Assembly (NCBI GenBank): GCA_037043015.1
Contig: CM073321.1
Location: 13,028,001 to 13,092,000 of the forward strand
DNA: 64,000 nt
Source of the DNA: Bryum argenteum
Lineage: Eukaryota > Streptophyta > Bryopsida > Bryales > Bryaceae
Reading direction: 5' to 3'
Position 1 is the stretch's first letter. Each line of letters opens with the position of its first letter. The notes under the pieces are model-generated. The model did not search any database. It saw only the letters and a program-made list of their open reading frames with translations, and had not been told where the DNA came from. Position numbers and translations under genes: made by a program. Positions 1 to 62,527 of the stretch are shown here, piece by piece.

Positions 1-424
1 GTATATCTTAAAAAACACATAAACATAATATATAAATAATAGATCATGGTAATCTACAAATGTATGGCGCTAGCATGTCTAGTACCAATCAGAAAACAAA
101 TCTCACACTAGGCTGAAGGTGTAGTACCATTAAAGTGCTGATCACACTCATCAGCCTCACAGTCTATAAACTTAAGCACACTATTGCTATAACGTAGACG
201 TGGAGTGTCAGACAAAATAGGAGATGGAGCTTGAACAAACTCTTGAGCAAGATGCTCAGCGTAGGATGGTAGGGTGAATGTTGATGGAGGGCTCTTGTAG
301 AGATGAGCGTTGCGAGTCAATCGCTCTTTCAGACCTGCGATGCTAAAAGTACAAAGAAAGTCAGTACTACAGATATGTAAGCGCGCAATTTAAAATCAAG
401 AAAGAGAATACAAGATGGTATTAC

Positions 425-1404
425 GCATCGATGAACTTTCGTGGCTTCTTCACAACCGGTTTGTCAGAGTCATAATCTGCGGGAGGGGCTGATTCTCCAC
501 TTTCTTCATCACCGGGAGGACCATTCTTGTATTCCGCTAGGACACCATCAAAGATTTCTTCGTCAGGTTCCATAGCGATCAGGTGTCGGTTTAATCGCGC
601 GCAAGCAATTACAGATGCACCTAGAAATTCAGAAGCCTACGTTAGAAATGCGAAATGTATAAACAAATTTTAATGTAGTGTTTATGGAAACATTACATGT
701 ACTTGCGGTCCAGTCGAAGACGATACCTCCATCGTCCGTGAAACAATCCACAAAACATTGAATGAAGGAGGGGTCCTTCTCTCGTGAGCCTCGCCATGGC
801 ATACCGTCCGGACGATAACGCAATGTCTCTTTGTCTGCAAAGTTAGACAGGCGGTCTTCCTCATCAGGTACAATTGTCAAACCCCTGTATGCGTGAGCCA
901 CTTGCCGAGTTCGGAACTTCAAAAGATAATCTTTACGAACATAAACTTTGATAAGGAAGCAGTGAGTCTGCAAACACAAGTTTAGATACATTAACATAGA
1001 AGCATAGAAGGCAATAATAATAATTGTGAAATTAGAAACTAGAATCTGCTCCGTACCTCTTTTGGTTTAGGTACGGTAGAGGCCATAGAGAGGGGATTAT
1101 ATCCCCACCGGTCTCGAACAAGACAAAAACTATATGTATTGGACTCAGAATCGAGAGTACGCTCGATTCTACGACATTTGGGATGCATCAGAAGAATGGC
1201 TCCAACGTCTGTCAAATGTTACGCGGCAAAGAAGAAGAGGTTCTCAAAGTAGTTTTTATCACGCCGGTTCCAGGATGGAACTTCCATTGGAGACACACCC
1301 GGTACAGGCAAGTTCTCTGGAGTGTCTGCAAAAATGAGATCAGTCCCTGGATACTTGGGATTATACTCCAACGCTGAATACGGGTACTTTCGGTCTTTTC
1401 CAAT
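425..1404 (-). other. Methyltransferase-like exons 8-10
   Basis: Three exons (1404-1057, 967-697, 620-425) splice without frame loss except one TAA in exon 8. The order, an Asp-Thr-Pro-Glu box first and the S-adenosylmethionine-type motif I last, is that of beta-class amino-methyltransferases such as phage and restriction-modification enzymes. Key positions are eroded: DTPE instead of DPPY/DPPW, and DWTASTC instead of D-P-F-x-G-x-G. The third intron (696-621) splits motif I itself, after AST. The C-terminal tail of exon 10 is acidic then basic. Catalysis is unlikely from this copy. Confidence 0.55.
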
Positions 1405-3572
1405 CTGAGATACAAGTCAATACTTATATAGTGGCTAATAGGTTTACAAGTACAAAATGTAAGTAGGGAGATTATAAATAACAAATGTACGAAATAGTAC
1501 CTTCTTGATGTGCTGGACAATATTGAGGATTTGCGAATCCCAATTTGCAGTCTTCAACGATTGATGAACCAAATCTCCAATGTTGCCTTTCTCGAGATAC
1601 ATAGGTAAAGTGACTGAAAGTTTTGACAACGAGCTGCTACCAATGTGATTGGGTTTCGGAAGAAGCCGTTTGGCAAATATTGGCTCGCTGAGGCGACGCG
1701 GGGACTGCAGGGAGTTGTGGTCAACAGTGAATGATTAAGGGAGGGACCCAACATTCGTAAGTCAACCTGTAGAAAGTTGAGTCAATCTTGCACCGCGTCG
1801 AATTGCATTGATTGTAGCTCCCTCTAAAGCCTGAGTCAGATCAACATCTTCTGGGCCTGCAATGTCGTCTGGAAGGGGAGCAATTTCTTTGGATTCTTGC
1901 TCAAGATCTACTACAGGCTCCGCAACAGCGTTGCGTCGCTTCCTGTTTGCTCAAGACTAGGGCAGTGAAACTGGTGAAGAAGGAGAAGAGATTGGATCAG
2001 GTGCGACTGGTAAAATGGAGAGGTCGTCATCATCGTCATCTTAGTCTATCTCCATAGGTGCGGTGCCAGCAGCGCTTGTATCGTTTTGAAGAAGATGCTT
2101 CTTTTCCTTATCCACGTAGTTATCCTGGCACTCAAGGAACCAACCACCACTCAGTAATTGTGTTGTAGTAAACTGCCTCTGTTGGTCTGCAGAGATGATG
2201 GTGGAGGGATCGTTGGACACGGAGACGTCTTCAAACTCTACTGAAACGGACCAAGAAGCTAATGCCCTTTTGGCAACAAGCTCTTGTTCCAAGTACCTAC
2301 ATTCAAGAGAAAAAATTAGAATGACAAAATCGAATATTTTATAAAAAAATTATTGCATGTAAAAGGCAACTGAAATGCATACCGAAATAAAAGAAGTTTT
2401 ATTGTAACTTTGCCACCACCAGTCTTCTGAAGATCGGAGCCTTTAATGAACCTCCCGCTTGCATTAAGAGAAAGGTAGTTCCCAAATGCCTACTGCCATA
2501 AAAACAACCTCCACTTCTCGACGTACGCGGATGGTTTTAAGACAGAATCATTCCATTGAATGTTGAGATTGTCATCTTCCACAAGTTTCTGCAATTCACT
2601 TGAAAGGAATTGCTCTAGCTAAAAAAAAAGGAAATCCATTAGAATTTAAAATATTGTAACGACAATAATATAGAAAACACGTTGATAAGCTGCAAGTTAC
2701 CTGTGCCAAAAGTGATGCGCGATGGAGAAAAGCAACCAAAGTTTTATCTTTCATTGGACAGTCTTCTGGAAAGTCAACAGATCGATGAACTTCGAAGGAT
2801 GCATTCCACCATTGGAGCCACTTTCCCTTGAAATCGGAGTCAACGTTTGTGGTGGCTACCATGTGGAAACGATCAATTGTCATATCTGGTTTGTGGATCC
2901 TGCTATAGTGAGACTATATTCGCACATGAAAGAGATTGACAATGTTCAATTGTGGTGTAGGACAAAGACGATTAGGCTTATATCGAAAGTGAGAAGAAAG
3001 CGATGTATACCTCTTTTGGAAATACTTTCCCAAGTTTGTTATTGGCGACAGCGACCATCTTGTCGAAATTGTTGGCCAAGAATCGATTTAATTTCTGATT
3101 TTATGGCGTTATCCATGGCACTCTATAAACCCGACCCTGTTTGTTTATCCTTGGGGACAGTGGCGTAGTAAGTTGCTTCAGCCTCGTCTGATGCTTTCGC
3201 TAGCCTCCTTTGTACAAAATATCGATATGAGTGAGAAAATGTGAAGAACCGAATACAAAATATTACGATGAAGCACATAAAATTCAACTAACCGCATACA
3301 AGAATTTAACAAAAACGTCAAGTGTAACCGGATACCAAGTTTCTTTTTTGCTTTGACGTTCTTCCAAATTCTGTAATCCTCCGGGGAGGTAAGATCCTTG
3401 AAGTCCTCGAGTTTCAATTTCCCAAACTTTCTCATGCATTGCAATTCTGCACACAAACCGTCTTCGACATGGTCATGTTCGGTAGACCTACAGAGCGGAA
3501 TCAAATATTAGAAACATTGTAGTGAAAGATAGTACAAATAAATTGATTCGAATGAATGTGACAATTACTTAC

Positions 3573-4393
3573 CAATTTATGTCGTTCATAGCGTCTAGGA
3601 AGAGATTGCTCTCTCCACGAGCATCAAGAACGATTCAGTCTACAGAGATGTACCACAAAGGATCCATCTTGTGATACCTTTCAATATGACGCAACCATGC
3701 CGTAACACGGTGGTTACCTTCGTACATATAATAGTACTTGTCACTGAGATGTTGAAGATCTGGATCAGACTTCTATATAGTCTCAAACTCTTCAATAGCA
3801 GCTTTCCACAGAGGATTTGTCCACACTGCATCTTCAGCACCAACCATTTTTTCTCTCCCTTTTCTATCAAAGGGAGAAACGTACATTACCCGGTCGCCTT
3901 CCCGATAGCCTTTGTTGAACTCATTCTCCAATTTCCTCACGTCTTGTTCCAAGATAGGTCGAACCTTAGGATAACAGACGAGACGACACAAAGGAATAAG
4001 CATGCGAGACTTTTTAACAGGTTTGAACCGAAACCTGTTTATGATCGCAATTGAATCACTTTTGTGAATCATTCTCATCTCGTTTGTACTCCAATTTGGA
4101 TCCTTGTTCTGAAGATGAGTTGGCATATGGACGATTCCAACGTTGACACTTCCAGGCGAAGGAGTGTCTTCATCCTCTGAAAGAGCGTCGGGTCCATCAT
4201 GATCGTGCATGGCTTGAAGATGACGCTGAGTTTCAGAAGGACTCTCTTCCGGGACTCCAATGCAAAATTTTTCAGCATTTGCGACACTATCACGTAATTG
4301 TTCCTCTCCGTCGGAAGATCGAGTTGGTGGAGAAGTAAGAAGAGGCGGGGTGGTTTCGTCATCTTGATCAGTATGGACTTGAGCTAAGTTCAT
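3573..4393 (-). other. Exon 1: acidic leader and ParB-like domain
   Basis: The exon opens at an ATG directly after a TTGCCAG acceptor. The first 120 codons are rich in D, E, S, T and P. The ParB-like part follows: a P-x-VR box at about codons 150-160, KLENEFNKGYREGDRVMYV, and YMYEGNHRVTAWLRHIE after the first stop. In ParB/Srx folds a G-x-RR or GNHR motif binds the nucleotide phosphate. The donor at 3572 gives a clean splice to 3487, restoring the reading frame across the junction, which supports real former splicing. Two stops (TAG 3773-3775, TGA 3635-3637) lie in the same frame 46 codons apart. Confidence 0.6.
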
Positions 4394-4559
4394 CTGGCAA
4401 TTCAGAAACCAAATACAACACACCACAAAAAGAATACGAATGTGTCAAAAAGACAATGCAATGAAAATAATAAAACACAACCGCTTTATAATTAAATATA
4501 TGATAAACTCATCATATCATCTGACGATACAACTAAGATGATTGCAACTTTGCAGCAAG

Positions 4560-4844
4560 TCGCAGAGAACGTCTGGGTGCAACTCTAGCTAATGCTTTCG
4601 CTTAGATACGTCTAGCTTTGGCCTCATTCTTATAAATTCGCATGTTAATCGCACGTGCAACCCGATCAACGTCAACACGTGAAGTGTGACGAATAGGAGA
4701 GGCATGAGGCGGAGTTCCGGGAACCGAGGACAATGGTATCACTAAACGACCCAACTCTACTACAACCATAACATGATCTCTCAGAGTAGACAAGTTGCTG
4801 TTAGCATCAGATTCCTCTTCACGAACAACTCCATGTAGCTTCAA
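4560..4844 (-). other. Possible 5' exon of the ParB-methyltransferase gene
   Basis: An open frame of 80 codons (4844-4602) ends in a basic stretch (RIYKNEAKARRI), then after one TAG continues in frame with AKALARVAPRRSLRLAAK. It lies about 170 bp upstream of exon 1 on the same strand. The basic C-terminal half could be a nuclear localisation or DNA-contact region. No unambiguous donor was found, so linkage to exon 1 is inference. It could equally be an unrelated relic. Confidence 0.3.
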
Positions 4845-5049
4845 CTACATGTAGCATCAGATTCCTGCACTACAAGTCAAAACCACCAGCACACTAACTA
4901 TCAGATACTATACAACGCCATGTAACTTAACCAAAATTAATACAAATATAACAATAGACCATTGTATGATAAAAATAATCACATAAAAACAAAGTTCATG
5001 GCGCATGGCAGATTCAAGATGCACGGGAAGTTTCATTTCACGCTACGCG

Positions 5050-6238
5050 CAAGGGCAGGGCCTTCATCACCCAGGTCGAGCTTTCAGAAAAGCCTTCATT
5101 TACACCAGCCAGCAATCAGGACTGATGCCTCGCGCTGTCCGAGGTGCAACGACATGAGCCTTCACCGACGGCAATCCACACCGATCGAAGCCTTGGAGGG
5201 ACCACGGCGAAATAGCAATCTTGACAGAAAACATACTGCTCGGGAAATTTTTTTAAAAAAAACAACCTGGCAAAGAGAAATAAGCAGCACCCGCCCTGCC
5301 TTGCATCGACGCAAGGCTGCCATCTAGACAAGCAATTCGAAAAAAAAATAGCAACATCCTTACTCCAACGTCGGATTAGATAAAAAAAAAACACTGAGTT
5401 GGCGGGGCAGTCTCAAGCCAGTACGGGATGTGTGCAAGAGCTTTCATAGACACTAGCCTAGCAATCAAGACTGATGCCTCGGGTTGTCCGAGGTGCAATA
5501 GCAAGAGCCTTCACCGACATCAATCCACACCAATCGAAGCCCTGGAGGGACCACGTTGAAATAGCAATCTTAACAGACAACAGACTCCACGGGAAAACTA
5601 AAAAAGTAAACAAGCTCGCAAAGGGAAATGAGCAGCACCTCCCCACAGCTTGCATCGACGCAAGGCTGCCATGTAGACGAGCAATTCTAGAAAAATAATT
5701 TACAACCTTCTTACTCCGAGGTCAGATCAGATCAAAAAATCCAGTCTGATGGCGAGGCAATTTCAAGCCGGTATGGGATGCTGTGCAAGAGCCTTCGTCG
5801 ACACCAGCCAACAATCAAGATTGATGCCTCGGGCTGTCCAAAGTGCAACAACGGAGCCTTTGCCGACGTCAATCCACACCGATCGAAGCCCTAGAGGGAC
5901 CACGGCAAAATAGCAATCTTGACTGAAAACAGACTCCATGGGAAAAATTTTAAAAAAAAAACAAGCTCGCAAAGAGAAATGAGCAGCACCCCCCGAGCCT
6001 AACATCGACGCAAGGCTGCCATCTAGACGAGCAATTCTAGAAAAGAAATTTAAAATCTTCTTACTCGGAAGTTAAATCAGATAAAAAAAACCACTCTGCT
6101 GGCGGGGCAGTCCCAAGTTGGTACGGGATGCTGTGGAGCAGCCTTCATCGACACCAGCCTAGCAATCAAGAGTGATGCCTATGGAATTTTGTTAAAAGAA
6201 AACAAACTGGTGGAGGCAGATGAGCAGCACCCCCTAGC
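5050..6238. repeat. Tandem repeat, period about 350 bp, just over three units
   Basis: A landmark (TGATGCCT) recurs at about 5122, 5471, 5821 and 6172, giving spacings of 349-351 bp. Each unit also carries CAATCCACACCGATCGAAGC, a G-to-A rich spacer with an A-run, and CATCGACGCAAGGCTGCCAT. The fourth unit lacks about 110 bp and is cut by the MITE at 6239, resuming briefly after 7032. Open frames inside are shadows with no family match. It looks like a short satellite block or tandemly duplicated intergenic unit. Confidence 0.85.
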
Positions 6239-7031
6239 CAGGGTTGTCTTATTAGACATTGTCGGACGTCAGACAGACACGACATGTCAGACAGACATTG
6301 AGCCTCAGAATGTCTAATAGAATCTACAGAATCTTTTTTTTACTCTTGATTTACCTTGTCCACGTTGCATCCAACGTGGCTGCCACGTGGCCTGTACAAC
6401 TCAGCAATACGGTGCGCGACTGCGCCACGTACGACTGGACCGGCGGTTGCCTCGACTGGACCGGTGGTCGCCTCAACTCGACCGGCAGTCGTCTTTTCTG
6501 GACCGGCGGTCGCCTGAGCGACCGACGATCGCCCGATGTTCCAAGAGGGTAGACTGCCGGTCGCCCTCTGAGCTACGTTTGCCCATCACCTGGATCGGCG
6601 GTCGCCTTACTGAGCGACGTTCGCCCATCGGCTGTATCGGCGGTTGCCCAGGGGCGAACGTCGGTTGCTCATGGGCGATCGTCGGTCGCTTATGGGCGAT
6701 CGTCGGTCGCTCAGGCGACCTCCGGTCCGGATGAGGCGACCGCCGGTCTAGTCGAGGCGACCGACGTTCGCCCCTATGCTACCGTCGGTCGCCTAGCGAG
6801 GTCGCCCGCCCCCGGTCGCCCACTGTGACGTGTAGTTTGATTTTCCACGTCATTATCGACCCTACGCCACGTAGAAAAATAGCTTTTTACCTCAATGTCA
6901 ATCTCAACAAGTTTTTTACTATGTAATTTTTGGTAGGGTCGACATTTTCGTCGATCGGACGTCTAACAGACATGTCCAATACGACAAATCAGACACACAT
7001 TCCGAAAAGGGTGTCTAATAAGACAACCCTG
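6239..7031. mobile_element. hAT-type MITE with perfect 8-bp target duplication
   Basis: The ends are exact inverted repeats (CAGGGTTGTCTTATTAGACA and its complement). They are flanked by the direct 8-bp duplication CCCCTAGC at 6231-6238 and 7032-7039; an 8-bp duplication is the hAT hallmark. The 793-bp body has no transposase. About 6420-6830 is a GC-rich array of GACCGGCGGTCGCC-like units. The right-hand 400 bp closely resembles the end of the larger hAT element at 22477-25397, so this is probably a deletion derivative of that family. It is inserted in the 350-bp tandem repeat. Confidence 0.93.
6420..6830. repeat. GC-rich dyad array inside the MITE
   Basis: Degenerate units around GACCGGCGGTCGCC alternate with GACCGACGTTCGCCC and GGGCGATCGTCGGTCGC. 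The core is an interrupted palindrome. The array lies subterminally in the MITE, the usual place of transposase-binding repeats in hAT elements. That role is inferred. Confidence 0.75.
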
Positions 7032-7080
7032 CCCCTAGCCTTTCATTTATCAATGAGCATTTGAAGAATTCGATACTGAC

Positions 7081-7500
7081 CTTGAAGTTGCGTAAGTAGT
7101 ACGCTTCGAGCTCCGCACGGGTTTTGATTGCCTCTCCAAGTTGATAACGATGGCATTTGTAAAACTCCGAGAATAAGCTGGACTCTGACGATTGAGTACT
7201 GACATTCTGCAAATTCATCTCCACGTTCTCTTCTTCTAGCCGCATTGTCATCTCATCTGCTTCTTGCTGCACGGTCCTCTCATCTTCTTTGCCTTAGCTC
7301 CCCATTTCTTGAAACGCAACTCATTCCTTGAAACCGAACTAGACAGTGATGAAATACGCACAGTTCAGAAGCAAAACTAAGCCCTGTAAGACCATCGTTA
7401 TTGTATTCATTGTCGTTCAATGTATCCCCCATGCTAAAATCTGCAATCCCTCTGACACTTTGCAAAAATACCATCCAGCTGGTTTTGTGACTCGGCGGAC
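7081..7500 (-). pseudogene. Coiled-coil gene fragment, unknown function
   Basis: An exon of about 60 codons (7272-7081) encodes EADEMTMRLEEENVEMNLQN and then SEFYKCHRYQLGEAIKTRAE, ending at a good donor (CTTCAAG/GTCAGTAT). The first half is a heptad-like acidic coiled coil. Upstream (7474-7280) is a second open stretch in another frame, beginning near MGDTLNDNEYNND and running into a basic segment; a frameshift separates them. It may be a downstream exon of the 8.3-9.0 kb gene on the same strand. No family was recognised. Confidence 0.4.
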
Positions 7501-7504
7501 CTAG

Positions 7505-7975
7505 ACTACTTGGCGGCAGATCGGAGGAGGAAAGTTTTAGGGTTCGGCGGTGCTGCTACGGCGCTGCTGGAGTCCCGCGTCCAACTGAATCCGGCCCAAT
7601 TATATTGTGGACGACCCAGCCAGCCCGTTATTCGGCGCGGTGATGACCGGCGTTTGGTTCACTCTGCCAGAACCGGCCGGCGCAGTGAAATCCGGCCCCG
7701 ACCGGCCATGACCAGCCCCAACCGGCCCTGACCGGCCTATACCCGCCTCGACTGGCCCCAACCGGCCCGTACCGGCCTAATACTATGCTGATGTGAGGAC
7801 CGGCCTGGACCGGCACTGACCGGCCCTGTCATATTGGGCGGTGACGACCGGCCCTGGTTAGAACCGGCCGGTGTAGGTTGTATGAACCGGGCCCGACTGG
7901 CCTTGCCATATCGGGCGTCGAGAACCAGCCCTGGCAAGAACCGACCCCTGTAGGCGGTGAGAACCAAGAACGGTC
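7505..7975. repeat. GC-rich ACCGGCC-type repeat block
   Basis: Short units of the form GACCGGCCCTG or AACCGGCCC recur irregularly for nearly 500 bp on a GC-rich background. Open frames on both strands across it are low-complexity artefacts. No terminal inverted repeat or target duplication could be fixed. It resembles, but is not identical to, the GACCGSCGGTC arrays elsewhere in the window. Confidence 0.7.
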
Positions 7976-8314
7976 GGGCTTGTGTAATTTCAAGTCTTAT
8001 TGTTAGACTATTATATTATTTACCTGTAAATTGTACACTCCGTAATGATTTTATCCACACACTCTATAGTACTAACAAGCACCAGTGACAACTTCTGTAG
8101 TCATTGCAATCGATATTGATAAGATTTATATGCACCACAACAAATCAAACATACATTCAATAAGTGGTTATACATTTCTTCCTACACCAACACTCGATCT
8201 ATAGCAACATTTGCATATACGAAAGCATAAAGCGTCAATCTAATCTACAGAGGTAAATGCTAATATATGTCGTGTTTCATTCATGACTCTAAAAAAAAAA
8301 GACATATCATTTAC

Positions 8315-9003
8315 CTCCTCCTCTAAAACGCGATCATTGATGTTTTCATTTTCTTCGACATCGAACAACTTCTTCATTGGATTCATGCGCTCGTCGATTT
8401 CGGAAGAGTCCTTCAGATCCTTCTCCGCGTCGCCAGAACTTGAATCTTCTACGTCATTGTCTTTGACATCCCCCTCCGCATCAACCTAATTATTGAACAT
8501 ACAGATCATTAAACTCAAACTCTGATCAATTACAAGCAAAAATTCTAGAAATACAGCCGTACCTGACGCTCGGAATTTTCGGCAGCCTCATCACCTCCTA
8601 CGTAATAATACAAGGATTTGCTCGACGTTGATGAACTTCTACCCCGCTCCTGCTCTTCTATAAATCTCTCGAATTCGTTCACATCTTCAGCTGTATCTTT
8701 CTCGGCAATCTCGATTATTGTGTCAAGATTGATCGACCGCATTTTAAGATTCCGCCTATACTGTGGCCCTACTTCATCATCGTTCACGTCAAATTCAACA
8801 AGGCCTCCCTCATCTCCACTCAACCGAGACGCACTCACCTTCCGCAATGCGCTTCGTTTGCGTGCTTTCGTGTTACTAAAACGAGTACCACCTCTCCTCT
8901 TCTCCTTCTTAGGCACACTGTCATTGGATCTCTCAGACCCGGTGCTCACCGCGTCCATAAGGTCAAGATTCTTTTCTAACCAACACAAAATGGACTGTCT
9001 CAC
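8315..9003 (-). CDS. Acidic Ser-rich protein, two visible exons, unknown function
   Basis: Exon 1 (9003-8563, 147 codons) starts with MRQSILCWLEKNLDLMDAVS. It contains a basic patch (KKEKRRGGTRFSNTKARKR), then an acidic/serine-rich part, and ends at CGTCAG/GTACGG. Exon 2 (8485-8315) continues in phase 0 with VDAEGDVKDNDVEDSSSGDA and ends in ENINDRVLEEE at GAG/GTAAAT. No stops interrupt either exon. The basic patch could be a nuclear localisation signal. Further exons may lie at 7.1-7.5 kb. It may be part of a transposon-linked gene, because the flanks are transposon-rich, or a lineage-specific host gene. Confidence 0.5.
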
Positions 9004-9009
9004 TACCTA

Positions 9010-9400
9010 ACCCACACCAACTAAACGAACAATGGAAAGGACCATATCGTCGTCCAATTCCTATTTAAACACAGTTTAGAAGCCGCCCCATGACCTGATT
9101 TGCGCAGTTGATTATTAATTATTACAACAACTGTGACGGCTAATACGCTTCCAAACGTGACAATCTTTGACATGAGATGCTAATCTATTTTTGAATTTAG
9201 ATCCCAATTCTCTGACAATAACAGCCGCCGTCACTTTTCCAAATTGGAGACTGTGAACTACATGCACATTAATCATACCATCTTACATTGCCTATTACTC
9301 TACAACATTTAATCTACTAGACAGTAATTGTCTGCTTCACTCACTTCACTGTCCTTTTTAACTTCATTATATTATTCCTCTACCAAACTTAGATTATAAA
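9010..9400. other. Spacer between the acidic gene and the MULE relic
   Basis: AT-rich, with no open frame or repeat that could be supported. It presumably holds the divergent promoters of the minus-strand gene ending at 9003 and the plus-strand frames starting at 9415. Confidence 0.5.
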
Positions 9401-9414
9401 CATTTGCATACGAA

Positions 9415-9669
9415 GTGTACATCCTTTTCTCACTTCCACTACCCATTTTCTTTGTTTCCCTCGCGCATCATGGCTGCCTCCTAACAGTTCTCCTGACCCC
9501 ACGTAGTTCTTCCACTATCTCCGCTGTTGCTCCTGCTCATGCTCGAGTGAAGGTTGAACCATGTCTCCAAGTCACAATTGATTTATCCGATTCATCAGAG
9601 GACGAGAAAAAGTCAACTTCGCTGCCATGTCGTCCGTTGTCCCATAATCCTTTGCTGCCTTCTATTTGA
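9415..9669 (+). other. Small ORF with SUMO-type motifs ahead of the MULE
   Basis: An 84-codon frame has a hydrophobic N-terminus (signal-like, FSLPLPIFFVSL). It then contains VKVEP, fitting the psi-K-x-E sumoylation consensus, and VTIDLSDSSEDE, fitting a SUMO-interacting motif followed by acidic residues. It lies about 100 bp before the MULE frame and may be its 5' exon, in which case the hydrophobic start would be outside the real coding part. Function is not established. Confidence 0.35.
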
Positions 9670-9763
9670 GATAATTATCTCACATCCACCCCTTCTTCCC
9701 TTCTTTCCTCGCAAATTTAAAAAACTCAAGAAAAATCTCCCCTCCCTCTACAATCTCGCTAGT

Positions 9764-12700
9764 ATGCCCAGTAGTAAGACTCTACTCAAAAAAATTGATT
9801 TCAATACCATTCGCACTGTCAATGTTTCTTTCTTGCCTCCGTCTTTCAATGGCGATGTTCTCTTCATCTTCCCTCCAACTATTTCGTATGCAACTCACAA
9901 GGTCGCGAAGTCCATGAAGGGGATGGATAAACGGTATGACGGACATGTGTGGACTAGGACAATGACTACGTACATCAGCAACACCTAAGGGTTGTCATTC
10001 CGGTACTCCAACTGTGTAGGTCATCTACAGTGCCACAACCCAAACTGCGACTTCTTGCAACGGCCTGATCGACTCGCTGGAGTGAACGACGTGGACTTTA
10101 ATGGCATTACTAAAGACCCCTTCCCAGTAGGCGGATCGCCCCCGCCCACCTCGACGTTGGTCTGTAAACTTTGCAAACAACCTCTTGTTTGTGTTGAGCC
10201 TTGTTCTGCGAAAATCTTTTACGTAGTTGGAGAAGATTGTCAAGAACGTGCATGTATATAGGAACCCACGAACATCCTGTCAAAGTCGGAGATTATAGAC
10301 GTGTACGGAAAAAGATAGATGAGATACTAGAAGAGCGTGTTGACCGTAACCCTCAAGCAACCGTTTCCAAAATAGTTATGGAAACCAGCAAAGACTTCTT
10401 AGGTAACTTACTTCTCCGTGACGAAGGTGACCCCAAAACCGGCAATCTTTCTCTTCAGTAGCTAGAACCAGTCTTCAAACAATGCAAAGAGTTAAACTCA
10501 CCGAGCATGCAGAATCGTATCTACACTTTCAAGTACTTGCGTAGGTATGGCATTCTCGATGGGATCACAAGTACTTGCGTAGGTATGGCATTCTCGATGG
10601 GATCACAAAGCTCAGAGGTCTCAGCAACTGGGCATATGTGCAACGCAACATGTTCCCTCGCGAAGGCGACGAAGCGGAGAAAGTCTTCATCTTCAAGATG
10701 TCGGAGGTCAGCCCCGGTAGCGGTGTTGATCTGGTTCGCCGTATGCAGCCTGGAGGAAATCTCTCCCACGCATGGATGATATTTGACCATGTCAAACGCG
10801 TTACGGATTAGACCACCATGGCCTGCCACGTGTACGACTCACGTTACCGACGCATTCTAACCATTGCATGCTGTGATTTCCTATCAGAGGACAGAGATGC
10901 TCAACTCGTCTTCTGGAAGAACCTTAATCACGTGATGGCCAGGAACGGAGTACCCAAGCCGCAATTTCAAGGATTTATGGCTGATAATGCTCAAGCCAAC
11001 TGGAACGTTGTGCGCATCATCTACGGCTCTGGAAACCCTGCTGTCCCCATGGAAGGGCGCGAACGAACATGTTATTTTCATTGGATGCAGTCTCTTGAGA
11101 AACATACGAAACAATACATTGTGCCCGAATTGCAAGGCCAACACCGCATTCTCTGTAAGCAGTATAAGGATGCGTGCACCATGGAAGAGGCTGAGACCCG
11201 ATATTGGGCTATAAGAGCATGGTGGGCATTCTCGAAGGCCACCTCCGAAGTTGGTTTAGAACACTTAAGTCATTGGCTTGCGTACTGGCACTTCAGATAC
11301 AGACAATGGGGTGGATTTATGGAACTAGTAAGTATACAATTTCTTTGCGTTATCTTTGCTGATTACATGCTCTACGGTAGCTTCTATAATGTTATGACAA
11401 GTGGCTGCAAGCGTCTGGCAATAAGGGTAGGAATTTATACGTCGCAGCCATTGACGACTACGTTCGGGCCTTCCTCCAAGTGGTCGGCTACCATCCATTC
11501 AACAAAGGCGGAGCAAGTGGTTCTGGACCAATCGTAGAAGAACTTTGTCAGCGTCTTTATACCGCTCAACGTCGAGCTAATCGATCTAGCAATCCATCTT
11601 GCCTCAACAAGGCAGTTATGGACTTCCCTGAAGCAGAAGCTTACTGTACGCATGATGCCCACTTGGAGGGGGCAAAGATTTTTGGTTCCAGGAAACGTAA
11701 GGCTGATGTTCCCATTGGTGCTGACGATGAAACTCATTGACCTGACACCGTGAGCTACTCACGTCCTCGAATTGGGAGAAGGGTCACTCGAGCTCGTGAT
11801 AAGAATCTCACTACCATCCACGAAGAAGATGAAGTTCACGAGCAACCGCTGGAACCGTCCTCTTCTCCTGGACGTAGTATTCAGCGCGTCATTGCTATCC
11901 AAGAGACGAGTGAATGAGCGGCTATGGCACATTGCCCGTTTGAAGAAATCCTCATCCAAGGCTTGTTGGGGTATTATGGCTAAGACTAGAAAGAAATGTG
12001 AATCCCGCATCGTCCAAAACAAGAAGGCTACTACAGCTCCAACTTACACAAGAATATGGTACCCTCCTCAACGTGGTAGCAAAATAGTAGATCAATTCTA
12101 CTTTTCTCCAGACAACATTGAGGGTTGTGTAAAGGGCAATGGTTTTAAATGGATTGAGCCGTTCTCTCGGAAACAAGGTCGTTTCCTCTGTTTGGCCTGT
12201 GAACATTGGGACTAATCTGACACGTGACAAAATAGAGGCGTTGGAGAATGCGGGCTTTCGGCTCTCACAAAAGGAACACCTTCCTCTCAACTGCGCATTC
12301 AATACTTCTGCCCCATCGAGAGACTTGTCACATATTCCTGTGCAGAACAAGGCTGATGTCTACCCGAAATCCCGGAAGTCTAAAGTTCTTCGACGCATTA
12401 AGGTTGTGAGTCCGAAGCACATGAAAAACATTGATTCAGCTCGTGCCATGGAGGCAAAAATACTCAAGGTGACCATGATACCACAACCTGGTTTTGGATG
12501 TATCGTCGCTTTGGAGTCGAATTCAGAGTTTATCTATAAACTATCTCTACCCTAAGTGTTCTTGCCCCGTGTTCAAAAAAACCATTACAAATTTGGGACA
12601 AAAAGGCGAACCGTATAGACATTGCAAGCACCTATACTTCGTGTTGGTATTGGTATGCAAATTTGATATTGATAGAGACCTCTTCATCCACGTGCCCACC

Positions 12701-12764
12701 TTCAGTTCCAACGAGGTCAAAATGATTCTAGAGAAGGGAATCCTAGACCAAGTTAGAGAGTAGA
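9764..12764 (+). pseudogene. MULE transposase relic with WRKY/GCM-like and SWIM zinc fingers
   Basis: The broken frame runs through several segments. First, 9764-9985 is open and ends in a TAA. Next comes a Cys/His finger: CVGHLQCHNPNCDF, VCKLCKQPLVC, then IGTHEHPVKVG, as in WRKY-GCM fingers of Mutator transposases. The DDE-like core is at 10620-11330 (MIFDHVKR, ACCDFLSEDRDAQLVFW, GFMADNAQANW, ERTCYFHW). A SWIM finger is at 12545-12650 (CSCPVF ... YRHCKH). Damage includes the TAA near 9986, a frameshift near 10250, a 38-bp tandem duplication at 10531-10606, a TAG after VKRVTD, and many stops at 11900-12200. The family assignment is from motif order; terminal inverted repeats were not located. 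Confidence 0.72.
10531..10606 (+). repeat. 38-bp tandem duplication disrupting the transposase
   Basis: The 38-bp stretch starting AAGTACTTGCGTAGG is repeated head to tail from 10569 with no visible mismatch. Because 38 is not a multiple of three, it shifts the frame. Deleting one unit conceptually rejoins FKYLRRYGILDGIT to KLRGLSNWAYV. The copies look identical, so the event is recent. Confidence 0.9.
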
Positions 12765-13269
12765 CTACCTCAAAATCACATTACGTAAACCAACATCCAC
12801 ATCTACCCGTTCTATATATTATCCCTGTAATCGTGTGTTTCACACGTAATTTTTCTTGATTTCACCGTTTTACAAAAGTCAAAAAATGTATCCCTATTTA
12901 TATAAACTTATGAATGGCTTTACAACTTCGACTTATGATTTCACAGTTATAAGATACTAGTCTACTCCGTAAAATTCTTAAATCTCTCTTCAAGTTTGCA
13001 GAAAGTGGTTTAAGTCCACCAAATTTCAGAACTTTTAGCCTCATCTCCACGGGTTTAGGAACAGTAAACCACGGTAATAAATCAAGAATATTCAAATATT
13101 CTTGAGAATATTGGGAAAAAATAGCAAAATATTATTTTTAGAAATTTTCTTACTGAGAATACCAATTCACCGCTCAAATTGCTGAAATTTGATGGCTCAA
13201 CGCTCACCGCTTTCCGCTCTCCGCTCACACCGTAGCTACGTCCCCCTTTTTGTAATCCCCGTTTCATGT

Positions 13270-13549
13270 CCTATGAGGGGTACAACTTCGTAATAAAGGA
13301 AAAGCAACAACTGCAAGCTCGTTTGTGCTACCTGAGGGTGGATGGGCTTTAGGCTCATGTGTCCATATGTATCATCCACAGTGTCTCTTAGTTCATTGTT
13401 TGACTCAAAGTCGCTGTGCTATATGCAAAGCGCCTTTTCACGAGCGCTTTTACAAGATGTTCAATCTAAGAACTTATATGCCGCCTTCTTGGGAACACAA
13501 TGCTGAAACTACTGACGAGGTTCGATTTTGGGGTAAAGACCTTATTTAG
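13270..13549 (+). pseudogene. RING-like zinc-finger fragment
   Basis: The frame contains ALGSCVHMYHPQCLLVHCL then RCAICKAPFHERFYKMFNL. This is C-x-H-M-Y-H-x2-C and a later C-x2-C, the second half of a RING-H2-type finger. It follows the MULE SWIM region by about 550 bp on the same strand and could be that element's cargo or C-terminal domain. The N-terminal cysteine pair is not seen. Ubiquitin-ligase activity should not be assumed. Confidence 0.45.
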
Positions 13550-13559
13550 AGTTGGCGTA

Positions 13560-13941
13560 GAGGTGAACATGATCTCGCGAAGAGTACTCCTAGCTCTCAA
13601 TTGAACTGAGAAACTGTCCCATACAAGATTCTAAGAGTTGCACCAATACTTGTCGGACAAGGTCCAGAGCATGAGGGTAATCGGATGTTCCTCTTCCAAT
13701 GCCTTGGGACTATTTTGATGTGAGATCCAATACATTCAAGTGGGGGCCCCACTCCATGGGACATCGATGGAATCAATTTGGGAAAAGAGTAACCGATGGT
13801 GAAGGCCATGCCTCCATGGAAGACTTGGAAGAGTGTCAATATGCTGAATCTACTTGGGGGCCACGATACCACTCCCAAGCGCTGGACTATTTATTGGATG
13901 TATATAGTTCCCTCACAAGAAACACTTTAAAGTCTTAGATC
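13560..13941 (+). pseudogene. Unrecognised coding relic
   Basis: A frame of 79 codons (13699-13938) with a composition compatible with coding (MPWDYFDVRSNTFKWGPHSM) follows the RING-like fragment after stops. No domain was recognised. It may be the tail of the same transposon gene. Confidence 0.25.
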
Positions 13942-14983: not shown

Positions 14984-15628
14984 TTAATTTGTCAACTTCC
15001 TCTGGAGTCTTGCCATACTTACCCGTGAACACCAAATCACGAATGCCTCAGTGAGCTCGTATTCGTGTGTGAATTCATCCTCCGAGGATTCGGAAGAAGA
15101 CCATGTTACGTAATATTCAACATTGGCCTTAGGACTCATAGATACAGCTCCAATTCCATCTCTTTTGATAGTACTTGATGTCTCTCCAACCTCTTTTGGT
15201 TCAGTATTCTCTTGTATAGGCAAACGTGGACGCGTCGACCAATCCACCCGCTTCCCAAGAATCATTTCCGCATGTGCCATTCTTGTCAAAAAGTAGGGAA
15301 CCTTATATATAAAAATACGGTTGCCACCGTATATAAAATGCCAAGCATACATGCATCTTTGTTTAAATAGGTCGTGATGGCACTCTCGGAGGTTTGCTTC
15401 ATTGTTGTGCCGATGTAGAGCAAAGAACTTGTTGATGTGGCACCACTCCACATATCTTACACACATGGGAAAAGACTACGGCTCCGTCTCTTCCTTCCAT
15501 CCTCTAAACGCTAATATCTTCGGATTCTTCAAGATCTCTATGCGCTTCTTCTCAATCCTGTGCTTTATCTTCCGACCTTGGTCATGTGGCACCATGGATG
15601 TAGCCGCTACAACGGGTAGTGCCTCCAT
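14984..15628 (-). pseudogene. Array-led family, copy 1 (unknown function)
   Basis: One frame runs from an ATG at 15628 to a stop at 14984, broken by a single TAG at 15476-15478. The N-terminal part is strongly basic (RKIKHRIEKKRIEILK). The conserved block follows: VEWCHINKFF, KQRCMYAWHFIYGGNRIF, MAHAEMILGKRVDW. It ends in an acidic, serine-rich tail (WSSSESSEDEFTHEYELTE). The same order of basic N-terminus, WCHI block and acidic tail occurs at 17669-18874 and 20346-21068. A GC-rich dyad array sits upstream at 15740-15990, with a shared leader (15687-15706) between. No known family was recognised. Confidence 0.6.
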
Positions 15629-17279: not shown

Positions 17280-17460
17280 AAGAGCAGGAGCTCTCGCGAA
17301 GTCGCCCCTGCAGAGTGCCGGTCGCCCCGAACCGCTGCTGAGGCTGGACCTCTTCTACAGCTGCACCGCCGGTCGCCCCAGAGATCTGCTGCAGCTGGAC
17401 CGGCGGTCGCTGCGGAGCGAGTCTTGCAAGAAATACCGGACCGCCGGTCGCTCTAACAAT
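17280..17460 (+). promoter_or_regulatory. GC-rich dyad array upstream of family copy 2
   Basis: Units CACCGCCGGTCGCCCC, CTGGACCGGCGGTCGCTG and GGACCGCCGGTCGCTC share the GACCGSCGGTC core. A TTAAATACAA box follows at about 17480 and the leader GCATTGTCTGGTGTCGAC at about 17540. The coding start is at 17669. The order array, AT box, leader, gene parallels copy 3. Confidence 0.5.
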
Positions 17461-17668
17461 GTCGCCCTGCCACAGGAGGTTAAATACAATCGTTCTTGGC
17501 CGTAGTCGTCACTTTTCAGTCCACGTGCCGTGCTGTTGCGCATTGTCTGGTGTCGACTCAAAGTTTCCACTTGCTTGCAGAATTGTTTGGAGAATGTGGA
17601 CTGCACTATTTTTGGTGATTTGTATCAAACATCACATCATAGCCGCATTTGCGTGTTCGGAGGTAACA

Positions 17669-18874
17669 ATGAGTACGATTGCCGAACGTAAAATAGTACT
17701 TGGCCAACAACGCAATACGAGAGGAAATAAACACAAGAGGAATCACCGTATTCTACAAGATGCCACTCAACGCGCTTTTCCACGGTGGGAGACCGAAGAG
17801 GGTGTTTGGAATCAGAAAAAAGTGAAGAATTGCATCGTATGGTGCCACATCGGCAATTTGTTTCCACACTTTCGACATGAGACGCACATCAAATTAAATG
17901 CTGCAATTCTGCACTATTGTAAGCATGACGAATTTGTACAACGATGTATTGAAGTGTGGAGGTTCCTTTATAGAGGCAAGAATGTCACCAAGAACGAGGT
18001 TTCGTATTATATTGCTTAAATGATGTATGCAGAGGTAATTTTGGAGAAAGTGGTGGATTGGAGGTCATTGAATAAAACGCCTCAAATCTTCCTTCCATTC
18101 ATGCAAGACATTCCAAGAACTCCATTGTCAGAAAACCCACAAGGTCTTACAGCAGCAAGTCATTGGAAAGATGGGAATGCCGATGAAGTATATGTTTGGG
18201 AAAATCCTAATTCTGATGAAGAAGAGGTTCAAGAGAGGCAGCATCATACTCCTCTTTTTGAAGGTTCTATTGGTGACGTAGAAGACTTTCATGTGGGTGA
18301 AACAAGCGTGCGAGATTCGGAGGTGATTAATGCACCTGTGAAGCACGTCAAGGACCTACGAACAGAAGGAGAAGCTGATATCATTGAACACATGGAGGTT
18401 CAAGGAATGTTTGGTGCACAAGGTTTGGGTCAACCCGAAGTTATATTTGGGCCGAGTATGAGCGCCCCTCCTCAAACAAATGTTAGCGTAGAGGAGGGGA
18501 CTCAAGAATATCCAATGGAAACGACTGAAGGGCCAGAAAGAGAAGGAAATGAAGAAGTAGAACTGGAGAAGAAAGTTGTAGTCATCAACGAGAAACGCCT
18601 CAAGAAAGTCGAAGATAGGTGGATGGAGGAGATGAAGTGGGCTTATGAGGATCATGAATATTTGTTTCATGCTTTGTCATTGGAAGAGAGAAAGTGTGTT
18701 GAACTCGAGCATGACATTGAGGAAATCAAGGATGCGAAACGGAAGAGCCAAGAGGTGCCGACAAATGTTTTTCCAGCTCTGGATGCATCGGATCAGGTCG
18801 ATTATGAGAAAGAACTCATAAAGCAAGAAAAACGTTTTGAAGATGTGCGAAGGAGATATAATGAGGTCGATTAA
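17669..18874 (+). pseudogene. Array-led family, copy 2 (longest; unknown function)
   Basis: A 402-codon frame is interrupted once, by TAA at 18017-18019. It starts MSTIAERKIVLGQQ and is basic. It continues with AFPRWETEEG, then the conserved block IVWCHIGNLFPHFRHE, FVQRCIEVWRFLYRG and MYAEVILEKVVDW. The tail is acidic (WENPNSDEEEVQE), then a long Glu-rich segment and a predicted coiled coil of about 90 residues near the end (KKVEDRWMEEMKWAYEDHEY, SLEERKCVELEHDIEEIKDA). The charge pattern suggests a DNA-binding, self-associating nuclear protein. That is inference. The start at 17669 fits the aligned starts of copies 1 and 3. Confidence 0.62.
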
Positions 18875-31445: not shown

Positions 31446-32113
31446 TTGTTAGTTTTTGTTCTGAATATCCTTGTGTCTTTCCGTGTCCTTGACACGTACC
31501 ACTTGACAGAAGTTAGGGCGATTATTCTCATGCACTCCAAGGACCATCAAATCGAGCGTATTCTCGACGACCGAGCGGCCGCTTACGAGTTCCGTGTCGT
31601 TCGAGATTGGTGGGGTTACAATCCCCTACCTATGTCTTCTACACTCCTTCACCACAAGGAGGTACTCTTGAAACTAAATTTCATACTCGTTGCTTATTTA
31701 CTAGTATAAATTGTATCTCACCATTGCTTGAGATCTTTTTTGCAGACTTACAATTTCAACATCAAGGTTTTTGCTCGAAGGAAGTTTGTGTCTAAGTTCA
31801 AATCCCGTCAAGTAGCTCAAGCATACGAGGGGGTGAACATAATGCCTGATGAGGAAGACCACGTCTCCAATTTTGCTGACACGGAGACCTTGACTTAATA
31901 CCCCAATGGTACACCTTGGCGTGGATCACGTGAGAAGGACCCATCCTTCATCCAATGCTTTATCGATTGTCTCACCGACGAGGGTGGTATTGTCTTCTAC
32001 GGGAGTACTAGTACTGGTAATACTCCTCTCAAACCTATATCAATGGAGATAAATGAACAATATATTAACATATTTTTCTTCTTCGTCAGGTGCTTCAGTT
32101 AATACCCTGTAAA
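31446..32113 (+). pseudogene. Truncated second copy of the methyltransferase gene
   Basis: Three exons (31446-31661, 31746-32016, 32091-32113) match exons 8-10 of the 0.1-4.4 kb gene, with both introns at the same codons. Shared strings include HLTEVRAIILMH, FNIKVFARRKFVSKFKSRQV, SNFADTETL, PWRGSREKDPSFIQCF and DEGGIVFYGSTSTG. Motif I reads GSTSTGASV here, closer to a G-x-G-like loop than the first copy. A TAA at 31896-31898 breaks exon 2, and the last exon stops after eight codons. The 5' end with the DTPE box and the ParB-like part is absent. Retained introns show a DNA-level copy, not a retrocopy. Confidence 0.7.
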
Positions 32114-32459
32114 TAAACATTTGAACATTTTAATGAAACCCAGTTAGTCGTAATAGGGTCTTAATCTTCGATAAAAAAAATTCAAATTGTGTCGAAATTC
32201 ACGCTCACCGCTCTCCGGTCACACCCGTGCACTCCCCATCTATTGATAAGATCTATTTTTGAGATAGGAAAGTAAAAGACTAGAGATAGACTTCTAGTTC
32301 TTGAGCAAGGAACTTGGGATATATAAGCTCACGGGTGAAAAGATAGAGACTCATTCTTTTGTTGTGAGCTCTTCTTTAAGAATGGGGTTGAGCTTAATAT
32401 AGTCCTTGGTTATGTCATTCTAATTTATTTTTGTTGTTGAGTTGGTAGCAAACCTATTA

Positions 32460-37299: not shown

Positions 37300-40190
37300 C
37301 TATTCACTCTCTAGTCCAGATGATCGATTTCTTCGTGTCATCCTCTCAAACCAATCTTTGTTTCTTAATATACTATTTTCTAAATCGTTATCCACGGTGT
37401 TGAATGGAGCACGAGGATGTAGGAAGTCATTTACACTATCTACATTCAAAGCTCTGATCTTCCTACACAAAATTCTGAATTCCGCAAGACCATGTTGAGC
37501 TAAAAGAAGCCCACCGTCTACCATAGCATTTTCCATTTCTCGAACACTTTTTTGGAACTTCTTCATGATATTCGACAATTTCTTCTCGTAACTTTCATCA
37601 TCAATAATCTCATCCTCTACCAATTCCTTCGGCCATGTTGCATTTGGGTCAATCCAATTGGGAAGATCAACATTAACATCTTCTTCCACGAAACCACCAT
37701 CTTCCTCCATATCTCCAAATGGATCTTCTACATCTGGGATATTACACGCTTCAAGTATAGGGATCACTCCACCCCTTTTTGTTCCGTACCACGTTCCACA
37801 AAACTCAACAATGGTATCGGTAGATAGCCCGAACATCTTCAAATTAGCAACTTGATGTTTGCAGAAATTACCACGAATGGACCACTCACAATTACAACAC
37901 GCGTATTCTGTACACGGAGCTGATACTTTGTACTACACGTCTTCATTTTTTGTACTTTGGACTAACCAAGGTTTGCCATCTCCATCTGGATGAAGGATGT
38001 CTGCTTCTTCAATTTCTTGTGCAGCTTCAACACTTTTGAGGACAATTTCCTCAATCTTAGTGTTTTTGATAAAACCCAAAGACTTTACGTCAAGCCTATC
38101 CGTAGTATTGTTATAACGGATGCTATTACTTGTTTAATTAAGCTTCAACTAAGATTCAAATATCTTTTACAATAACCCTATCTAGTCTTCTATCCTACAT
38201 CTTAACTTTATTATACGCACCGCATGACTAATTGTTTGAATTTGCACTTCTTGTACTTCAACTCACTCTCAACTCAAACACCTTCAAATCAAAATAGTAA
38301 TACGTGACATATTACTTATAATTTGATTAGAAATTAATTTAACCAAAACGGATTATGTTATATTGAAATAATACTTCAATTTAAAGACATACCAAAACGG
38401 CTATAATATGACCATATGTAGTCTTCAAAGTTGACCACATCTTCACCAACTTCATCAAAGAGATCGGTAACAGCTTCGCTCGCCCTTCCAATAAAATCCT
38501 CCTCGGTCTCTCCAAAATTTATGGACATGTACATCATTTTTCTCATTCCATAATACGCGAGGTGTCGGGCATCTTCATTTGCCCTTATTTTTTCAATAGC
38601 CCTCAAATTCCAATTTTTTAAAACATGCCATAAGCAAAGGTAGATAACGACGTCGTCATCTTTCCAAACAGTCCTGCAATTTAAACAAGATGATGTTATA
38701 AACAAAGTACCATAACTAATTATGTATTGGAGAATACACATGAAGAGACTAAATAGAAATATTACGCTAGCGTACACCAACGAACATAAACACAGACATG
38801 GATAGGGTATTGACAGGGTGAAACAATATCCTATCTACAATTTTTTACATACAAATAACAATAGAAGGTATACCTTATTGCATTTTCAGTAGCCGTGATG
38901 TCATCAATGACAAAACATGTTGGATTGAACGTAGGGCAATGAAGGCGTATAGTATGTTTCATGGCGGCCATGAATTTTGTTATACAATCCTCCGTCTCGC
39001 GGTTAGTAATAATCCACGCGCTTGGAAAACCACTCCGACGGTCATCGAATACAAGAATGGTGTATAAATAAAACTTGACCCTAGATGTACCAAACATGGA
39101 ATCCATGGATAAAGCATTATTATTGCCAAAACGGATCATTGCATCTCGTTGTTGTGGAGATTGTATTCCAAGAATGAATGGTTTTTGTTGATCTTCCGGA
39201 AGGTTTGGAATCTCACCCGCCCATTGTACTAAGAACACGCTTTCACAATTAGCTTCAATCCAAGATGAAACACTAGCCGTTTCCGAAGTAGCTCTCTTCC
39301 ATTTATCCATAGCATGACGCTTCTCTATATTTCGAATATTCTCCATTTTCAAGTAGTCATCCTTCCGCATGGGTAGACCAAGCTTCTTCCTTTCTTGCCA
39401 CACCTTCAAATGGTCATCAAAAATTTGCTTTGTCGTGAATCCTGCATCAAGTCGATTCCATATGAAAGTCTTTGTTTCTAGAGAGATCCGTGGTGCTAAT
39501 TGCGAGGCTCGTGAGTCAGAAGCTTTATCATTCAAACCATGAGCAATAGACCCATCCAATCTTGTATGAGTTATATGGTAAAAAGAAATTGTGGCTACAT
39601 CTGATTGGATATACTCTTTTTTGATGGAGAAATTTGCCAAGCATCCACGTTTGTGATTGTGTCGCATGTCTTTGTTGTCACGATGATCTTTAGGCCCATA
39701 CGAGCAATGGTAGCTACATCCAAGTTAGAGATTGAGTAAGAAAAATAAGAAATGTGAATTGCCTTTTATGGATAAGGTATTGGCAAAGGCAAGTGAATAA
39801 TAAATAAATATTGTGGATATGGTATTAACAAGTATTGTTTATGAGTGCCTACAAATACCTTATCACAAATTTAAGTTGGAAACAATATGACATTGGAGTT
39901 CATCTTAGAAAGCCAAATGTACATACATCACATCGCATATAGTTTGAGTATAAATTTGGAAAGTGCAATACTTACTATTTGTGACCGCGATGCATTGTGC
40001 TTCTTGCATTTGGATGGCCATCTTCAGAGCCGGAGAGATTCTTTGTTATGTCCCATTCTACACCTTCTTCAAGTGATCGTTCCCCTAAAAGAAAATCATC
40101 AATCCGTGATGTAGGAGGGCGAGCTTGTTTGCACGATACAAACTTCCCCTTCCCGGTTCGGATAGCATCATTTCAAATGAGATCATGATG
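37300..40190 (-). CDS. MULE transposase with Cys/His finger, DDE core and SWIM finger
   Basis: Exons on the minus strand: about 40190-39970, 39735-38875, about 38672-38396, and about 37985-37300. The first exon ends HPNARSTMHRGHK. The second opens with CSYHCSYGPKDH and RHNHKRGC, a zinc finger as in MULE/FAR1 proteins, then the core ALSMDSMFGTSRVKFYLYTI and CFVIDDITATENAIR. The third has IYLCLWHVLKNW, the usual catalytic-region C-x2-H. The last has the SWIM finger CCNCEWSIRGNFCKH and an acidic to basic tail. The visible exons have no internal stops, and the ENAIR/TVWKDD junction splices cleanly. This could be the autonomous transposase; exon borders at both ends are approximate. Confidence 0.7.
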
Positions 40191-61400: not shown

Positions 61401-62527
61401 GCAATCACCAACTTCCTTCACTATCAAGGGAAAATCCTTCACATTCTGCGAACCCTCAATTGAGGTGGGTGATTTTCCGCAACTGCTGTCAGCATACTCC
61501 AGCTCCATGACGCTACCATCTTCATCTTCAATATTCTCGTGACCTCTTTCAGCCTTCACGGGGCGATCCTCCTCATCATCGCTTTTGCACAAATTCAGAA
61601 ATCACCGAAAAAAGTCTCAGAAAACTGCACTTCCAGGTGTCTTAGAATCTCATTACTTTTAAGTCTCTTTCCAAATTGCAAAAGACCGTACTTCACAGGA
61701 GCTTGGTCAAAGCTCACACAGATGCCAAAGCGGCTGTTGCTAGTGTACTCATGCTAATTGATTCCAGCCTGCTATGACAAACTATCACATCTTTAATTCG
61801 GGCAAACAAGCTCCAGCGAGACATCTGACCTGCAAAATACGTGATTCCTCAAAGCTTGAGGCCTTGACTGTACATGTATAGACATTCTGCTCTTTGGTTG
61901 AGCGTCCATGCACAATGCATAGCCAGGGTTCCTGTCTTCAGACATCTCCGATTCCACCACAGTGGCATCAGAACAAAAAGGTCGGCAAGTAGACACCGAA
62001 TCATGTTTGCCTGCAAGAGCCCTCGCACCTGAACCGGAGGCATTGTTGATACTGTGACCTGCTGGCTCCGATGGACTCACTATCTGACTTGGTGTAGACT
62101 TCAGAGTGAAAATTTCCCGATTAATATGGTCCTGCTCAGACCGATCAGTATGAATCTTGAAACAATAGTTGCACGCGCGAACTCGCTCATTTTCGTCGTG
62201 GCCACGTCGAGGACTATTGACAGGGGCGGCAATGGTATTGAGAGTGCATCTTCCACAGAACACTTTACCACAAATTCGACAGTGATGACGCCTGTTGAAA
62301 ATTGTAAACTGGGACTCGCATTCATAACACATGCGACAGCTCCGATCGGGCATCCAAAAATCTCGAGACATGACTATGGCCTCATCCTGCAAATTGCCAA
62401 GACGAGGAATCCACGCGCTCACTCGTCCAACAATTTCGCTCCATGCTATGACTGCTTCTTCCATTAGCCATGCCAGCAAGTCCACATTTTCTGCTTTCGC
62501 TTCTGCAGAAATATGATACACAAACAA
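52496..62527 (-). CDS. FAB1: FAB1-type 1-phosphatidylinositol-3-phosphate 5-kinase
   Basis: About 19-20 exons read without stops. The N-terminus (62527-61830) has a FYVE zinc finger: FWMPDRSCRMCYECESQF, RRHHCRICGKVFCGRC, RACNYC; it binds PtdIns3P on endosomes. A linker includes DYDSNGVIWEPPPPEDEDDE. The Cpn60-like part spans about 60400-57000 (GHFRALVAQLL, MDPGGYVKVKC, VVKGIVCHKNV, NPRLLLLGGALEYH, PNVLLVEKSVSR, ERIARCTGAQ, MFFEGCPRPLGCTVLLRG). A Cys-rich middle region follows. The kinase is at 54150-52496: GKSNVFFAKTMDDRFVVKQV, SRLYDLKGSVRSRYN, MDYSLLVGVDE, LGIIDFIRQYTWDKQ and the loop PTVISPEQYKIRFRKAM. The product makes PtdIns(3,5)P2. The likely start is ATG 62464 or the earlier 62527. It stops at TAA/TAG-type end 52496 after KKEAKR. 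It appears intact. Confidence 0.93.

Follow-up and report, generated by a model that had tools for sequence, protein, structure and literature searches.

The window analysed here, a 64,000-nucleotide stretch of the Bryum argenteum genome (positions 13028001–13092000 of contig C1), opens with the decayed copy of an accessory gene, hereafter gene A, of a large repeated DNA transposon. At a probability of roughly 0.6, we consider this gene to encode a methyltransferase-like and probably also ParB-like protein that has been under selection and would act on the element. A search of the genome for the NAM domain matched 28 exons, in keeping with a land plant.

A gene A model was built on one genomic copy (L040) and then projected onto 22 copies, among them the copy in the window (L009). 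The model comprises ten exons and 1,168 codons, and its span from ATG to TAG corresponds exactly to positions 108–4393 of the window on the minus strand. The initial annotation had described a fusion with plant introns at this place, and the motifs that it named (EGNHRVTAW and P-x-VR in exon 1, DTPE, and GGIVFDW) are all present on the minus strand; DTPE and GGIVFDW lie in exons 7 and 8, and its exon numbers (8–10) are one too high. The GT-AG boundaries that it reported are kept at all nine junctions in 5 of the 22 projected copies, whereas only six of nine are canonical in the window copy. The exons lie as follows in the window:

3573–4393, minus strand: exon 1, with the start codon and the ParB-like box PKVR ... 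YEGNHRVTAW; contains YEGNHRVTAWLRH and YPKVRP
3293–3487, minus strand: exon 2
3011–3209, minus strand: exon 3, acceptor AA in the window copy
2701–2919, minus strand: exon 4, acceptor GA in the window copy
2383–2618, minus strand: exon 5
1501–2296, minus strand: exon 6, charged linker and beginning of the methyltransferase-like domain
1057–1404, minus strand: exon 7, position of motif IV; FADTPEN, i.e., DTPEN, in the window copy
697–967, minus strand: exon 8, GGIVFDWTAST, first half of the S-adenosylmethionine (SAM)-binding motif I
429–620, minus strand: exon 9, remaining half of motif I together with motif II (RHLIAMEPDEEIF); in the window copy the donor is AT
108–334, minus strand: exon 10, including the stop codon TAG

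The copy in the window is dead, with ten in-frame stops and damage to three of its introns. Copy L015 reads through 1,167 codons without an in-frame stop and contains one flagged insertion with a length not divisible by three; because of this insertion, and because the projection discards insertions, we do not call L015 proven intact.

Profile and phage comparisons show the predicted C-terminal domain of gene A to be related to permuted N6/N4 DNA methyltransferases. The Pfam model PF01555 (N6_N4_Mtase) matched five of six gene A members weakly and under the curated cut-off, with the best e value of 0.0045 obtained when exons 8 and 9 were joined and profile positions 170–217 of 221 aligned, and the methyltransferase families 3008, 18293, and 8769 of PHROG gave best e values of 3.6e-5, 4e-5, and 7e-5, respectively. 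When the C-terminal half was compared with phages by tblastn (e value limit 10), 119 records were hit, the best at an e value of 2e-4 with 68% query coverage and a site-specific DNA-methyltransferase as the target; 17 of the 20 rows listed carry a methylase or methyltransferase annotation, several of them from near-identical phages. In hhalign comparisons the C-terminal half scored 96.6% against four phage methyltransferases, on 58 columns surrounding motif I, and 93.0% over 57 columns of the motif I region against a bacterial ParB-methyltransferase, versus 0.4% for an unrelated ParB alignment used as negative control. A search of PDB profiles with the C-terminal half returned no methyltransferase match. 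In β-class (permuted) N6/N4 amino-methyltransferases motif IV precedes motif I, and this order is found in gene A, where motif IV (DAPEN, exon 7) stands ahead of motif I (FDWSASTG, exons 8/9). Of the 22 copies, 15 have DAPEN as motif IV and one, that of the window, has DTPEN. The aspartate, the second proline, the second glycine of motif I, and the acidic residue of motif II are retained in L015 and many other copies. Separately, the genome holds further methyltransferase-like sequences (VDLTASTGASLRACRASGRHFFGIEED) at L047 (C4:20498341), C7:9878472, and C4:20517780; for the L047 family, the genome yields three close copies plus 53 remote matches, and many matches break off at about the same place in motif I, as they would at an intron.

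The N-terminal half is likely but unproven to be ParB-like and would then be a possible DNA-clamp domain. The order LIPLCRLVCYPKVRPISEQDVRKLENEF ... YVYEGNHRVTAW in this half is one that we take to resemble ParB. GxHRxxA is a ParB motif; of the 17 copies covering the site, eight keep its counterpart EGNHRVTAW intact and nine carry at least one change. The sole notable profile match is a weak one to the ParB-like partition protein family phrog_1033 (best e value 0.0035, four of five members). The methyltransferase-like part of the fusion proposed by the initial annotation is supported by PF01555, PHROG, phage tblastn, and hhalign; its ParB part is weak, the other ParB comparisons being empty. 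PF02195 was found in none of five phage records (0/1 and 0/4), and an AlphaFold2 prediction without alignments for exon 1 of the window copy had a predicted local distance difference test score (pLDDT) of 36 and was not used.

Gene A evolved under purifying selection. Across 66 pairs among 12 copies, the ten remaining projected copies (the window copy and strongly gapped ones among them) being excluded, the ratio of nonsynonymous to synonymous substitution rates (dN/dS) has a mean of 0.218 and ranges from 0.134 to 0.350. The median is lowest in the ParB-like region (0.088, residues 85–275), and is 0.654 for residues 1–84, 0.125 for residues 276–560, 0.308 for the linker, 0.231 for the methyltransferase-like region, and 0.325 for the tail. 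We infer that for much of its history the family encoded a functional protein. Gene A is also abundant: the window copy has 40 genomic matches besides itself at 87–90% identity (the best 40 of 628 candidates scored) in the 258.8 Mb searched, and part of exon 1 has 165, with 150 copies among the matches listed, window included. Copy number and dN/dS together rule out that the motifs are there by chance. In the subfamily of the window, 34 of the 41 matches listed (window included) lie on contig C1, which makes up 17% of the genome, a skew to be read with the query itself coming from C1 and only the best 40 matches being scored. One guess is that C1 is a sex chromosome or one of low recombination.

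Gene A lies within a repeated unit with common ends. The left terminus, GGGGAATGCACGGGTGTGAGCGGAGAGCGG, is common to many copies, and on the right 39 nonself matches to a query covering window positions 12500–13600 end at query positions 733–757, with a mode of 744 that corresponds to window position 13243. Because the left terminus lies 582 bases outside the window and the right end at 13243, the element is approximately 13.8 kb long. Both termini end in GGGG and share GGTGTGAGCGGAGAGCGG in inverted orientation, as terminal inverted repeats do. Mutator-like elements (MULEs) produce target site duplications of 8–11 bp (PMC6446971), and copy L023 is flanked on both sides by an exact 9-bp duplication, ATGTCGCAC. 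The parts of the element in the window, besides gene A, are as follows:

1–13243, no strand: DNA transposon, probably Mutator-like, approximately 13.8 kb, with its left terminus 582 bases before the window (L009:2418)
4533–4844, minus strand: probable last exon of a small gene C, with one in-frame stop, common to many copies (by eye)
5091–6180, no strand: internal tandem repeats of approximately 349 bp, with comparable arrays in L012, L020, and L021
7110–7293, minus strand: gene C, probable first exon, resembling L029:1340–1470 by eye
9551–12763 (about), plus strand: gene B, divergent and transposase-like, decayed in the window
13194–13243, minus strand: right terminal repeat, with GGTGTGAGCGGAGAGCGG in common with the left end
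13244–13252, no strand: possible decayed 9-bp target site duplication CCCTTTTTG; the left side reads CCCTTTTCA, with seven of nine bases matching

Gene B, transcribed divergently from gene A, contains by eye the pattern D..D..CxxH..E followed by a C-terminal SWIM-like CxC...CxH. The D..D..CxxH..E pattern and the SWIM finger are the motif rules for a MULE DDE transposase, and from these motifs we infer gene B to be a DDE transposase of Mutator-like type that bears a SWIM-like finger. Among the 150 listed gene A exons, at least 55 have gene B within 20 kb; in at least 49 of the 150 gene B is divergent and on the expected side, and six are otherwise arranged. In 200 randomizations of the gene A positions, which assumed lengths for some contigs, the mean expected by chance was 1.62. 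The 49 paired copies are a lower bound because the pairing uses only the listed matches to the two genes. The inverted termini, the divergent gene B, and the 9-bp duplication together suggest a Mutator-like carrier. Gene C and the internal tandem repeats sit between gene A and gene B, and in L040 the reading of gene C ends ...KLQSS* (by eye).

A second, divergent gene A fragment (exons 7–8) lies at window positions 31476–32237 on the plus strand and ends at a GGGG terminus (32192–32237). At L029:6407–10000 a divergent element family begins, with the terminus GGGGAATGTAGAGGCGTGAGCG and DVPEN as motif IV; its gene A segments are 34–65% identical to L015, and 57% over the aligned C-terminal part.

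Several results weigh against the reading of gene A as a methyltransferase-like and ParB-like accessory gene of a Mutator-like element. The catalytic consensus (D/N/S)PP(Y/F/W) is found in 0 of the 22 gene A copies, and ASTG departs from the SAM-binding consensus in that the first glycine of motif I is replaced by serine. For the N-terminal half, neither a Pfam search nor a search of PDB profiles gave a meaningful ParB match, tblastn against phages returned nothing at an e value of 10, comparisons with P1 ParB alone and with an alignment of five phage ParB proteins gave no support, and no alignment was detectable with the N-termini of two bacterial ParB-methyltransferase fusions; a hidden Markov model of 11 ParB-N domains scored the best of the 22 copies at −0.6 bits, versus 5.6 for the best of 2,000 shuffles. 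Gene B has no match in Pfam, the MULE model included, and by eye none of the 74 genome matches of that model falls on the listed gene B places. As to the carrier, an exact flanking duplication is seen in a single copy, with seven of nine bases matching in the window; the flanks of L023 share an additional 14-bp stretch, CGCTAAAATGGCAC, and its target may therefore be repetitive; a third presumed pair of ends, 19 kb apart, has no flanking match and may belong to two copies; and two further predicted right ends were missed. A phmmer search with part of gene B also gave no meaningful match, and the AlphaFold2 prediction of its core (without alignments, pLDDT 37) was not used.

In the mechanism that we envisage, the N-terminal domain, probably ParB-like, would load the gene A protein onto the DNA of the element, perhaps at the G-rich termini or the internal repeats. 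The methyltransferase-like domain would then methylate the element at N6-adenine or N4-cytosine or, because its catalytic motif is altered, might only bind it, and expression or transposition of the element would be favored against host silencing, by analogy with VANC of the VANDAL elements. Methyltransferase activity is uncertain because the catalytic motif is DAPEN and not (D/N/S)PP(Y/F/W). A fair contender, at clearly less than even odds, is that the domain is catalytically dead and that gene A is a VANC-like anti-silencing or transposition factor that binds DNA and acts by occupancy. This would fit the variants of motif IV (DAPEN in 15 copies out of the 22, DTPEN in a single one, and DVPEN in L029), the replaced glycine of motif I, and the stronger constraint on the ParB-like region (median dN/dS 0.088) than on the methyltransferase region (0.231); however, the latter is still under purifying selection, and the retained aspartate, second proline, second motif I glycine, and acidic motif II residue likewise speak against a dead domain. 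That gene A instead encodes a working N4-cytosine or N6-adenine methyltransferase marking the element's own DNA is an alternative of only slightly lower probability: the domain order and the methyltransferase affinity point to it, and the same has been proposed for algal relatives (PMC12477816), but motif IV and motif I are both altered.

Because MULEs tend to pick up fragments of host genes (PMC6446971), and other methyltransferase-like loci are present in the same genome, gene A might be a captured and amplified host gene, a Pack-MULE-like cargo without function for the element. We regard this as improbable given that gene A is a complete intron-bearing gene under purifying selection across copies, that it is repeatedly associated with gene B, and that the divergent L029 family bears the same gene (57% identical over the aligned C-terminal part). 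The initial annotation had envisaged a gene acquired from bacteria or phages that gained introns and multiplied; introns and multiplication are borne out, but it missed that the gene multiplied as cargo of a DNA transposon. We reject an isolated horizontally acquired gene in view of the transposon features, and a free-standing acquired family that was then duplicated, for which prokaryotic domain affinity and introns speak, is very improbable since the common termini, the partner gene, and the flanking duplication indicate transposition as a unit.

The bacterial or phage affinity itself holds. A scan of bacterial genomes gave 123 candidate stretches, of which one was confirmed, with 32% identity over query residues 235–290; this relative (L058, a contig of a metagenome-assembled genome of Pseudomonadota) carries a tandem pair of genes that look like fusions of ParB and methyltransferase, and for one of the pair the phage counterparts bear methylase and ParB-like annotations. 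These bacterial and phage fusions have a ParB-like N-terminus followed by a permuted methyltransferase, a plan that gene A probably shares; unlike gene A, the L058 genes are intronless, keep SPPY and DPPY, and have open reading frames of 513 and 426 aa versus 1,167. Two scans of viral contigs, made with the two halves, gave 39 and 126 candidate stretches, none of which was confirmed as a relative; in view of these scans and of the DNA-transposon termini we reject a viral origin.

Accessory proteins combining ParB and a methyltransferase have been described from transposons of brown, red, and green algae (PMC12477816), and the claim of an undescribed system was therefore too strong. Like these, gene A lies within a DNA transposon on the strand opposite that of a transposase-like gene and is related to methyltransferases, the ParB relation being weak. 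The accessory protein of Sola1-1_Ec32 from Ectocarpus, ParB plus N4/N6 methyltransferase, has 1,104 aa (PMC12477816) as compared with 1,167 for gene A, and the two agree in their similar length, the probable two-domain plan, the strand opposite the transposase or transposase-like gene, and the large DNA transposon; compared by description only, they differ in the carrier (Sola1 versus probably Mutator-like, with a 9-bp duplication, here), in the land-plant host, and in the catalytic motif, altered to DAPEN in gene A. VANC of the Arabidopsis VANDAL elements (PMC5735166, PMC10398659), which are MuDR families (PMC12730594), is likewise an accessory gene on a Mutator-type element, and gene A may similarly act on the chromatin of its own element. 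TET/JBP and SET enzymes also ride on DNA transposons (PMC12730594); they resemble gene A as epigenetic-modification-related cargo and differ in enzyme folds, hosts, and transposon families. Among the listed titles and abstract openings of the open-licence literature we found no land-plant or Mutator case of an accessory protein like gene A. To our knowledge, VANC has no methyltransferase or ParB-like domain. Gene A is probably of a recently described kind, the ParB-methyltransferase accessory proteins of transposons, with the land-plant host, the probably Mutator-like carrier, and the altered catalytic motif as its new features.

A further proposal, which we consider possible but doubtful, is that Mutator-like elements of land plants encode a DNA-modification protein of bacterial type that is guided by ParB and has a rebuilt catalytic motif, DAPEN; such an epigenetic effector, encoded by the transposon and distinct from VANC, would act on the DNA of its element through new chemistry or through occupancy. 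Land-plant transposons with DNA-modifying proteins of their own would bear on the escape from silencing and on the disputed N6-methyladenine and N4-methylcytosine signals of plants and, if real, would link the brown, red, and green algal reports to land plants and the Mutator superfamily. Gene A, which is present in many copies, under selection, and free of stops in one copy, makes the question testable by long-read methylation calling and biochemistry.

Elsewhere in the window, two open reading frames at 14987–15475 (minus strand) and 17342–18016 (plus strand) look alike by eye; a Pfam search with the second gave no good match (lowest e value 0.58). A separate transposase fragment at 37303–39724 (minus strand) matches the Pfam MULE model at an e value of 4e-7 and is unlike gene B. 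The reading frames at 53536–62563 (minus strand) resemble a kinase gene of the FAB1/PIKfyve type that has a FYVE-like finger.

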